Origin: Alphaproteobacteria bacterium
GTDB lineage: Bacteria; Pseudomonadota; Alphaproteobacteria; Caulobacterales; Parvularculaceae
Assembly: GCA_030433215.1 (NCBI GenBank)
Contig: JAUIMC010000010.1
Location: forward strand, 1-64,000
DNA: 64,000 bases
Direction of reading: 5' to 3'
The first letter of the stretch is position 1; each line of letters begins with the position of its first letter. The notes beneath the pieces were generated by a model. That model was not told the DNA's origin and did no database searches. It saw only the letters and a program-made list of their open reading frames with translations. Position numbers and translations under genes: made by a program. Positions 29,219 through 33,060 of this stretch are shown piece by piece.

Positions 29219-30298
<1,080 letters not shown>

Positions 30299-30402
30299 CG
30301 CGTCTGTCGTCCCGCATCTAACAAAGCTTTGATGTTTTCTCGGTTGGAATCCCGGCGCATGGGTTCTAAGTAAGGCGCGCCGTCAGAAGCGGGGGAGTTC
30401 GC

Positions 30403-31998
30403 TTGCCGTCCAGCAATGCCATAGAGCGCCGCCGCGTCGGTCTTTTGGGCGGCTCCTTCAATCCCCCGCATCAGGGGCATCGCGAAATTTCGCTGGCCGC
30501 TCTGGAGCGGCTCGGGCTCGACGCCGTGTGGTGGCTGGTGACGCCTGGCAATCCGCTGAAGGACCCAGACAGTTACGCTGCATATGATGACCGGCTGCGG
30601 CTGGCCCGGGCGGTGAGCCATCACCCCGATATTGTCGTCAGCGACTTCGAACGCCGCAAGGGGCTGGCCTACACCACGGATACGATAGACGCTTTGAAAG
30701 CCCTCAATCCGCATGTGGATTTCATCTGGCTGATGGGCGCCGACGGGCTTGAAAATTTTCACAAGTGGCGCGACTGGCGCCACATCGCAGAGGCCGCGCC
30801 CATCGCTGTCTTTAACCGGCCCGGCCATGAGGCTGAAGCGCTTGAAAGCGAGGCGGCCGAAGCGCTTTCGGACTACCGCATCGGCGCCGACAAAGCGATG
30901 GAGCTTTGTGCAACCGAACCGCCTGTCTGGGTGTTCTTTCAGGACACGGACAACCCCCTATCTTCAACCGCGATCAGGAGCAGAAAAATCCAGCACGCAC
31001 AGACCATAGACCGTGATGACGATCTGATTGCGCCTTGCGGCGCGCTCGCCTATTTCCTCGATTTACATCCGGACCAGGGCGATTTCCGTGCTGATGCGCT
31101 CGAGGGGCTGTCGAAGACCCCGAAGTCGATTTCGCCGAAATATTTCTATGACGAATACGGCTCGCAACTGTTCGACCGGATCACGGAAGTCGAAGAGTAT
31201 TATCCGACCCGCACCGAAAGATCGGTGTTTGAAGGAAACGCGGCGGAAATCACCGGCGCCATCGGCCCGGGGGCCGCGATTTTCGAATATGGCTCGGGGT
31301 CGAGCGAAAAGATCGAATGGCTGGTGAACGGCCTTGAAAAGCCCGCCGCCTATGTCGCGATGGATATTTCGCGCGAATATCTTCTCGAGGCGGCGACGTC
31401 CATGGCCGATGTGCTGCCCGTCCCCGTGGCGGCGATCTGCGCGGATTTTCATTCGCCGATCAAACTTCCGAGAAACGTGTTGCCCGAGCCCAGCCATTGG
31501 CTCGGCTATTTCCCAGGCTCGACCCTCGGCAATATGTCCCGCGACGATGCAGAAGCGTTTCTGAAACGCGCCTCGGATACGCTCGGCGAGAATGCGCAGT
31601 TCCTGCTCGGCGTCGACCTCGTGAAGGACAAGGCCGTTCTCGAGTCGGCCTATGACGATGCGGAAGGCGTGACCGCCGCTTTCAACATGAACCTGCTGAC
31701 CCGGATGAAGGCCGAGCTCGATGCGCGGCTCAATCTTGGCGATTTCGAACACTACGCTTTCTACAATGATGAAGAGGACCGCATCGAGATGCATCTGCGG
31801 GCTGTGCGCCCGACCGAGATCATCATCGACGGCAAGGCGTTTTCATTCGCCGAGGGCGAGACCCTGCATACGGAGAACTCTCACAAATTCACCCTCGAAA
31901 AAATCGAGGCGCTGGTGAAGGAGACGCCCTGGCGGCTCGAAAAGGCCTGGACCGACCCCAAGGGCTGGTTTGCGGCGTGCCTTTTAAGCAACAAATAA
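30403..31998 (+). CDS. nadD: Fusion: nicotinate-nucleotide adenylyltransferase (NadD) - histidine methyltransferase (EgtD)
   Basis: One uninterrupted 531-codon frame. Residues 1-219 are a complete NadD: nucleotide-binding GLLGGSFNPPHQGH, VTPGNPLK, WLMGADGLENFHKW, the SSTAIR motif (187-192) and the usual C-terminal element DLIAPCGALAYF. Residues 222-531 are a complete EgtD-type SAM-dependent L-histidine Nalpha-trimethyltransferase: KYFYDEYGSQLFDRI, EYYPTRTE, SAM site FEYGSGSSEKIEWL, YFPGSTLGNM, AYDDAEGVTAAFNMNLL, RIEMHLRA. NadD makes deamido-NAD from NaMN; EgtD makes hercynine, the ergothioneine precursor. No EgtB is in the window. Start TTG 30403, with GGGGGAG 5 nt upstream. The fusion is my reading of intact motifs on both sides. 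Confidence 0.9.
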   Translation: MPSSNAIERRRVGLLGGSFNPPHQGHREISLAALERLGLDAVWWLVTPGNPLKDPDSYAAYDDRLRLARAVSHHPDIVVSDFERRKGLAYTTDTIDALKALNPHVDFIWLMGADGLENFHKWRDWRHIAEAAPIAVFNRPGHEAEALESEAAEALSDYRIGADKAMELCATEPPVWVFFQDTDNPLSSTAIRSRKIQHAQTIDRDDDLIAPCGALAYFLDLHPDQGDFRADALEGLSKTPKSISPKYFYDEYGSQLFDRITEVEEYYPTRTERSVFEGNAAEITGAIGPGAAIFEYGSGSSEKIEWLVNGLEKPAAYVAMDISREYLLEAATSMADVLPVPVAAICADFHSPIKLPRNVLPEPSHWLGYFPGSTLGNMSRDDAEAFLKRASDTLGENAQFLLGVDLVKDKAVLESAYDDAEGVTAAFNMNLLTRMKAELDARLNLGDFEHYAFYNDEEDRIEMHLRAVRPTEIIIDGKAFSFAEGETLHTENSHKFTLEKIEALVKETPWRLEKAWTDPKGWFAACLLSNK

Positions 31999-32187
31999 TT
32001 TGCCGCTCCCGGTTGGAGCGGCTCCTAAACGGCCTTATATTTCTTATGCGGAGCGAAGGCTCCGCGCAGCGTATGGAGACTGGAGCTGAACGCACAGCAT
32101 AGCGCCGCGGCCGCGGGTAAGGCCGCATTAGGACTGGTTCCGGACAATAATGACCCGGAACAGGCAGGAGCTGACGAAGACGGGAGT

Positions 32188-32562
32188 TTGCTCTCGCAGC
32201 TTTCCCCGGAAGAGCGCAGCCGGAAAATTCTATCCCTCATTCTCGAAGAGCTCGATGAAGACAAGGCGGAGAATGTCGTGACGATTTCCCTTGCCGGGAA
32301 GTCAGACATTGCCGACGCTCTGGTCATCGCGTCCGGGCGCTCCCAGCGTCATGTGGGCGCCATGGCTGACAAAGTCATGCGCCGCCTCAAGGATGCGGGC
32401 CTCGGCCGCGTCCGTGTCGAAGGCGCGAGCGCCTGCGACTGGGTGCTGATCGACGCCGAGGATGTCATCGTCCATCTTTTCCGGCCTGAAGTCCGAGATT
32501 TCTACAATCTTGAGCGCGTCTGGTCGGAGGCCGCTCACGCGCCGACGAAATCGGACGCTTAA
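32188..32562 (+). CDS. rsfS: Ribosomal silencing factor RsfS
   Basis: Binds L14 and blocks subunit joining in nutrient-poor cells. 124 residues, with LEELDEDKAENVVTISLAGKSDIADALVIASGRSQRHV in pieces and the signature DWVLIDAEDVIVHLFRPEVRDFYNLERVW. The frame is open about 120 bases further upstream without an ATG or GTG, so TTG 32188 is used; its GGGAG is very close (1 nt) and the start is uncertain. The 189 bases between egtD and this start hold nothing else recognisable. Confidence 0.92.
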   Translation: MLSQLSPEERSRKILSLILEELDEDKAENVVTISLAGKSDIADALVIASGRSQRHVGAMADKVMRRLKDAGLGRVRVEGASACDWVLIDAEDVIVHLFRPEVRDFYNLERVWSEAAHAPTKSDA

Positions 32563-32577: not shown

Positions 32578-33060
32578 ATGCGGATTGAGATCGCCGCGGT
32601 TGGAAAGAAGCGCGGCGGTCCCGAAACGGCGCTGGTCGAGGACTATCTTGACCGCGCGCGCGGGTTCGGTCGGCGCATGGGTTTTTCTGACGTCTCATTG
32701 AGTCAGTTCGATGCGCCCAAATCTCTTTCAGGAGACGCCCTCAAAAAACGGGAAGGCGAGCTCTTGTTGAAAACCCTGTCTGAGGGGGCGGCGCTGATAG
32801 CCCTCGACGAGCGTGGGGAAAACATTTCCAGCGAAAAATTTGCGAGACTGCTGGCTGGCATGCGAGATGACGGCGTCGCGTCGGCGGCGTTCGTCATCGG
32901 CGGCGCTGACGGCCATGGCGAGGAAGTGCGCGCCCGGGCTGCGCGGCTTGTCTCCTTCGGCGCCGCGACCTGGCCGCACCTGCTTGTCAGGGCGATGCTG
33001 GCGGAGCAACTATATCGGGCCATGACGATCCTTTCCGGCCATCCCTATCACCGCGCATGA
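32578..33060 (+). CDS. rlmH: 23S rRNA (pseudouridine1915-N3)-methyltransferase RlmH
   Basis: SPOUT methyltransferase that acts on the 70S ribosome at helix 69. 160 residues: MRIEIAAVGKK, ALDERGENISSEKFA, FVIGGADGHGEEV, and the diagnostic C-terminus RAMLAEQLYRAMTILSGHPYHR. Overlaps the next gene by ATGA. Confidence 0.95.
   Translation: MRIEIAAVGKKRGGPETALVEDYLDRARGFGRRMGFSDVSLSQFDAPKSLSGDALKKREGELLLKTLSEGAALIALDERGENISSEKFARLLAGMRDDGVASAAFVIGGADGHGEEVRARAARLVSFGAATWPHLLVRAMLAEQLYRAMTILSGHPYHRA

Follow-up and report, generated by a model that had tools for sequence, protein, structure and literature searches.

A lineage-restricted NadD-EgtD fusion in Parvularculaceae, probably derived from neighbouring genes of one operon

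Why should an essential enzyme of NAD synthesis (NadD) and the enzyme that opens the synthesis of the antioxidant ergothioneine (EgtD) be encoded as a single polypeptide in certain marine bacteria? The question is raised by one open reading frame (ORF) in the window analysed here, that is, the whole stretch of 64,000 nucleotides from contig JAUIMC010000010.1 of an alphaproteobacterium of the family Parvularculaceae (Table 1). A preliminary description, made from the letters alone, had reported a single 531-codon ORF in which a complete NadD is joined to a complete EgtD, and had placed it within the obgE-rsfS-rlmH cluster. The ORF listing, domain searches and synteny bear out both statements, the cluster being obgE-nadD-(egtD)-rsfS-rlmH. 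No internal stop interrupts the 531 codons, and an SD-like GGGGGAG (SD, Shine-Dalgarno) stands immediately 5' of the start codon. In Pfam, residues 14-194 match CTP_transf_like and residues 228-529 match Methyltransf_33. NCBIfam cut-offs are passed on both sides, by TIGR03438 for EgtD (355.6 bits against 290.9) and by NF000843 (248.6 against 240), NF000845 (213.5 against 210) and TIGR00482 (126.2 against 112.45) for NadD, with further NadD subfamily models scoring under their own cut-offs. The window's genome is a draft of 37 contigs and 3.75 Mb; PF10017 and TIGR00482 each match one protein in it, the fused ORF, and a whole-genome profile search found no second, free nadD or egtD. Scanning positions 30200-32300 gave no promoter-like site and five terminator-like sites against 2.3 expected, an uninformative excess with one of the five on the coding strand, within nadD.

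Table 1. Positions in the window of the fused gene, its parts and its conserved neighbours.
Feature	Position	Strand	Description and basis
nadD-egtD fused ORF	30403..31998	+	531 aa, TTG start; ORF listing, hmmscan
NadD domain, residues 1-192	30403..30978	+	Pfam, NCBIfam, motif positions, conservation, fold matches to solved NadD chains
Junction/linker, residues 193-207	30979..31023	+	Model, motif positions, comparison with relatives
Codon GAT (Asp205)	31015..31017	+	Position -120 before PKYFYD
EgtD N-terminal element (LIAPCGALAYFLDLHPDQGDF)	31024..31086	+	Frame of egtD in separate-gene relatives
EgtD methyltransferase domain, residues 228-529	31084..31989	+	hmmscan, alignment to solved EgtD, fold
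obgE, conserved upstream neighbour	29228..30298	+	ORF, synteny
rsfS, conserved downstream neighbour	32188..32562	+	ORF, synteny; start position provisional
rlmH, conserved downstream neighbour	32578..33060	+	ORF, synteny

The point at which the two enzymes meet has moved. It had been set near residue 220, with APCGALAYF taken as a C-terminal element of NadD. Where relatives have the two genes apart, xLxAPxGxLAYFLDLHPDxGDF is read in the frame of egtD, after its start codon, and the window's APCGALAYF..QGDF stretch therefore belongs to EgtD and not to NadD. Comparison puts the junction at about residues 193-207, directly after a NadD domain whose motif bounds are GGSFNPPHQGH (residues 16-26) and SSTAIR (residues 187-192). 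The EgtD start codon (GTG or ATG) of most separate-gene relatives lies at the site of the window's GAT codon for Asp205, and the window has no ATG, GTG or TTG codon between residue 193 and PKYFYD.

A survey of 28 genomes of the genus shows that the fusion is real and restricted to a lineage. Fifteen genomes, the window's included, carry it without a stop; in four others nadD and egtD share one frame with a single stop, and in nine they lie in different frames, so that 13 of the 28 have separate genes. A stop between the genes in relatives, which the preliminary description would have counted against a fusion, is thus found within the genus, but not in the closest relatives of the window (92, 78 and 76% identical), all of which are fused. 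The nearest of these is the isolate Marinicaulis flavus SY-3-19 (now Hyphococcus luteus, Parvularculaceae, Alphaproteobacteria). The fusion is also present in a one-contig genome (G004) and in a member of another genus of the same family (G035), where the linker is longer and contains ATG codons. An assembly or sequencing error that deleted a stop or shifted the frame might be suspected in a draft of 37 contigs some of whose relatives have a stop or another frame, but the same open frame recurs in the 15 independent assemblies, the linkers vary among fused genomes yet remain open, and the linker of the window contains neither stop nor start. We regard such an error as having next to no probability for the window, and reject it as the cause of the fusion for the group.

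Stop-free matches to both halves were also sought beyond the genus. Among the matches listed for an order-level set of 249 genomes, they occur in the window's genus only (10 genomes), and among the matches at E <= 1e-90 in a set of 385 genomes, no fusion was found besides that of the window. When 84,980 species genomes were scanned, 14 rows among the best 80 of 317 stretches matched both halves; these are 13 known genomes of the genus and Maricaulis salignorans, the latter with a stop. Long 'open frames' in genome G263 of family f8 and genome G232 of family f5 were rejected as fusions, since a stop parts the genes in both. Besides the four genus genomes, a single in-frame stop is present in at least 13 genomes of the Maricaulis family, among the matches listed for the 249-genome set. 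Readthrough of such stops was considered and dropped, because normal start codons follow the stop at the loci inspected. Two individual loci may be recorded here. At one (L123, the same locus as L120; from G073, 66% complete), nadD and egtD share one frame with one TAA, 3' of which there is no ATG, GTG or TTG start for egtD. At the other (G028:C2:1045795-1046718), one TGA was counted inside the match to egtD, although an open EgtD of 307 aa stands among the ORFs of L117; the match probably begins upstream of the start codon.

The preliminary description did not know this architecture from the literature. It is confined to a lineage, as the survey shows, but with 15 of the 28 genus genomes and G035 carrying it, it is not a one-off. 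No NadD-EgtD chain was found in print in the literature searched, although subscription journals and protein-architecture databases, which lay outside that scope, may list one. The fusion is best described as a real, conserved and probably recurrent joining of two known enzymes.

Gene order around the locus offers a history for this joining. The order obgE-nadD-egtD-rsfS-rlmH is common to the genus, to genus g3 and to the Maricaulis family, the last two with nadD and egtD separate. In five of the 13 separate pairs of the genus, the nadD stop and the egtD start overlap by four bases (GTGA or ATGA), and a g3 locus (L119) has separate genes with a 4-base overlap at a different place. Some further genera of this family have nadD adjoining rsfS, with egtD at another site or about 1-3 kb off on the opposite strand. 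Nine loci were examined in other families of the class; seven, from four families, have nadD-egtB-egtD-rsfS, one has nadD-egtD-rsfS and one has no nadD nearby. It should be noted that these nine were picked as best EgtD matches, so that seven of nine is no estimate of frequency, and that G483 of the 385-genome set lies outside the loci read. At 65 more distant loci (from the best 80 of 317 stretches) egtB adjoins egtD in 59, and nadD is within reach in one, Parvularcula maris.

These arrangements are consistent with an ancestral layout in which an egtB-egtD pair stood between nadD and rsfS. Departure of egtB from this interval, the direction of which we infer to be exit and not later entry, would have brought egtD against nadD with translation coupled, as the 4-base stop/start overlap of several relatives suggests. 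Small frame changes at the junction could then have joined the genes, probably several times. We consider this the best account of the locus, at a probability of roughly 0.8: a historical fusion of operon neighbours into one two-enzyme polypeptide with no metabolic link, of which the order of events is a reconstruction, as the activities and the translation of some fused genes discussed below are predictions. NadD and EgtD would be paired because their gene order was already present in other families, and the surprise of the pairing is mostly explained in this way.

How often the state has changed was addressed with trees. A five-protein tree (ObgE, NadD, EgtD, RsfS and RlmH; 1183 columns; L031, a fragment of G035, left out) separates two fused groups, clade A with 100/98 support (the window and L003-L008; seven rows) and clade B with 100/97 (L009, L011-L014 and L017; six rows), and sets L015, L020 and G035 apart, giving a minimum of four changes. 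A tree of the three neighbours only (669 columns), which is poorly resolved with 11 of its 31 inner branches open, recovers clade A at 86/77 and clade B at 99/98, with a minimum of five changes. Placing all 16 fused rows in one group was rejected (p-AU 1.6e-47), and so was grouping the 14 rows left without L020 and G035 (p-AU 3.6e-4). The fusion has firmly undergone several changes of state, and it is likely that all of them were gains, as parsimony with a separate root and equal costs finds four gains and no loss. A single early fusion that later split several times is the less likely history. With a gain weighted at twice a loss, one gain and six losses tie with four gains, and beyond that ratio a single gain is preferred; furthermore, a fused gene that kept its inner start, as in clade B, could re-split by one indel or stop. 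Against this reading, the outgroups (g3, the Maricaulis family and other families) are separate, the separate rows have the place of the start and its SD in common, and equal costs favour gains alone.

The two clades differ in what remains of the old EgtD start. Ten genomes among the 28 have a GTG or ATG located 120 bases before PKYFYD, in the EgtD frame of separate or fused genes and with an SD energy of at most -5.5; as background, this energy is reached by 9.8% of the 511 start triplets that occur in frame inside the two genes. Clade B has a GTG or ATG at the old site in all six rows, with SD energies of -5.6 to -6.6, and may therefore also make free EgtD, to judge from the start and Shine-Dalgarno sequences retained. 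Clade A has no start codon there in any of its seven rows, so that EgtD would be made only within the fusion, 1:1 with NadD. Some members of clade A have other ATG, GTG or TTG codons nearby, mostly with weak SD; for example, L005 has a GTG at -39 (SD energy -5.7) within the EgtD core. Outside the two clades, L015 has a TTG at the EgtD start site (SD energy -4.2) and L020 has no start there.

The preliminary description had remarked that EgtB, the usual companion of EgtD, is missing. This holds at the locus but not for the genome, where EgtB was found on contig 22 (G000:C22:35240-36469; 563.8 bits against a cut-off of 360), divergent from an NAD kinase gene (NF003406, 377.4 bits); the two divergent neighbours span L116:7226-9387. 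Across the genus, 25 of 28 genomes have EgtB over the cut-off, two (G019 and G020) carry pieces of it at contig ends, and none was found in G007, which is 84% complete. An orphan EgtD arising through loss of EgtB was accordingly rejected. Loci were read from 20 of the 25 genomes, and nadK is the divergent neighbour of egtB in 19, the remaining one stopping at a contig end; among ten loci from other genera and families, nadK lies within 1.5 kb of egtB in six. No EgtE over the cut-off was found, the best match reaching 74.2 bits against 400, and this family matches weakly in 14 of 14 controls too. Two records bearing egtB-egtD pairs deserve caution: L096, titled Bacillus sp. 2B10, resembles Sphingomonas records and is possibly mislabelled, and L090, a Thermoplasmata archaeon MAG contig, reflects either transfer or a binning error.

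Both halves have the features of working enzymes. None of the 28 rows, whether fused or separate, departs from the NadD motifs (GGSFNP, H.GH, GAD and SST.IR) except at their variable sites. For the EgtD half we take the substrate-site residues of the Mycobacterium smegmatis enzyme to be Y39, Y56, N166, Y206, M252, E282 and S284; the corresponding positions of the fusion (249, 267, 377, 417, 463, 491 and 493) are identical in all 28 rows. The title of structure 4pip also names EgtD residues M252 and E282. The predicted structure of the fusion (mean pLDDT 87.1) has two confident domains joined by a linker, residues 193-205, that is predicted to be disordered (pLDDT < 50), and its pTM of 0.60 means that the model does not predict how the domains are placed relative to each other. 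In fold comparisons the EgtD half matches solved EgtD chains at TMt 0.85-0.89 and the NadD half matches solved NadD chains at about 0.63-0.75. Close fused pairs have dN/dS of 0.05-0.18 in both halves, like separate pairs.

The product is thus probably a working enzyme with two predicted activities, one polypeptide of two independently folded, active parts on a short flexible linker. The NadD half would convert NaMN and ATP to NaAD, and the EgtD half would convert histidine to hercynine with SAM; the genome yielded one copy of each. Nothing observed points to channelling between the two. We also considered a pseudo-fusion in which one half is decaying and the ORF serves the other half only. The dN of NadD relative to ObgE is slightly raised in the fused clades (2.06 in clade A and 1.74 in clade B, against 1.50 in separate rows), as such decay might produce, but each half is the sole copy found in the genome, the motifs are whole throughout, the dN/dS values of close fused pairs are low, and EgtB over the cut-off is kept in most genomes of the genus. 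Decay of either half is very improbable on these grounds.

It remains to ask whether selection joined NadD and EgtD, tying ergothioneine to NAD synthesis through co-localisation or allostery. The fusion occurs in several lineages and has been kept across the seven diverged species of clade A, and with egtB beside NAD kinase, ergothioneine genes adjoin NAD(P) genes at two places. To our knowledge, though, the reactions of NadD and EgtD have no substrate or product in common, the 13 unfused genomes of the genus do well, the pairing follows a gene order that exists in other families, the model gives the two domains no fixed arrangement, and no paper tying NadD to EgtD was found in the literature searched. 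We consider such functional coupling improbable, and it is a little less probable again that the ergothioneine pathway is integrated into NAD(P) metabolism, with the fused EgtD sensing or following NaAD/NAD supply and antioxidant output set by NAD status. The preliminary description spoke of the fusion as coupling an essential gene to a thiol-antioxidant methyltransferase; a special coupling of NAD and ergothioneine need not be invoked, a shared operon history being sufficient for the pairing.

Compared with known systems, neither half is novel. The NadD half has the same full-length domain as the families TIGR00482 and NF000843, with GGSFNP.H.GH and SSTxIR, scores over their cut-offs and the same place after obgE. 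NadD is a free protein in most bacteria, whereas the C-terminus of NadD continues into EgtD in the fusion. Likewise, the EgtD half shares its full-length domain, substrate residues and fold with EgtD (TIGR03438; solved structures 4pim and 4uy6), from which the window differs in an N-terminus that is joined to NadD and has no start codon of its own. EgtD is one domain of a fused enzyme elsewhere too. In fungi, Egt1 is a single EgtB-EgtD chain, and within the same family as the window, genus g6 has EgtB and EgtD as one chain of 758 aa (L139:1336-3612), apart from nadD. In family f3, many of the EgtD matches listed fall within frames of 700-850 aa, which may also encode EgtB-EgtD chains. In an EgtB-EgtD chain, EgtD is joined to the enzyme that follows it in its own pathway, whereas in the window it is joined to an unrelated enzyme of NAD synthesis.

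Coupling of gene pairs through termination-reinitiation across 4-base overlaps has been described (PMC10666635), and such an overlap is what the five separate pairs of the genus have, whereas the window lacks the intervening stop and start altogether. The genus presents a series: 4-base overlap, same frame with a stop, fusion with an inner start and fusion without one. Since the full series exists within one genus, the step from coupled neighbours to a fused enzyme is directly testable. Among surveyed fusions of metabolic genes (PMC4921024; the main text of that source names neither nadD nor ergothioneine), two metabolic enzymes are likewise found in one chain, but the roles of NadD and EgtD are not neighbours in a pathway. 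Hence a caution for the reading of such chains: the two-enzyme fusion described here more likely reflects gene order than a link between pathways.
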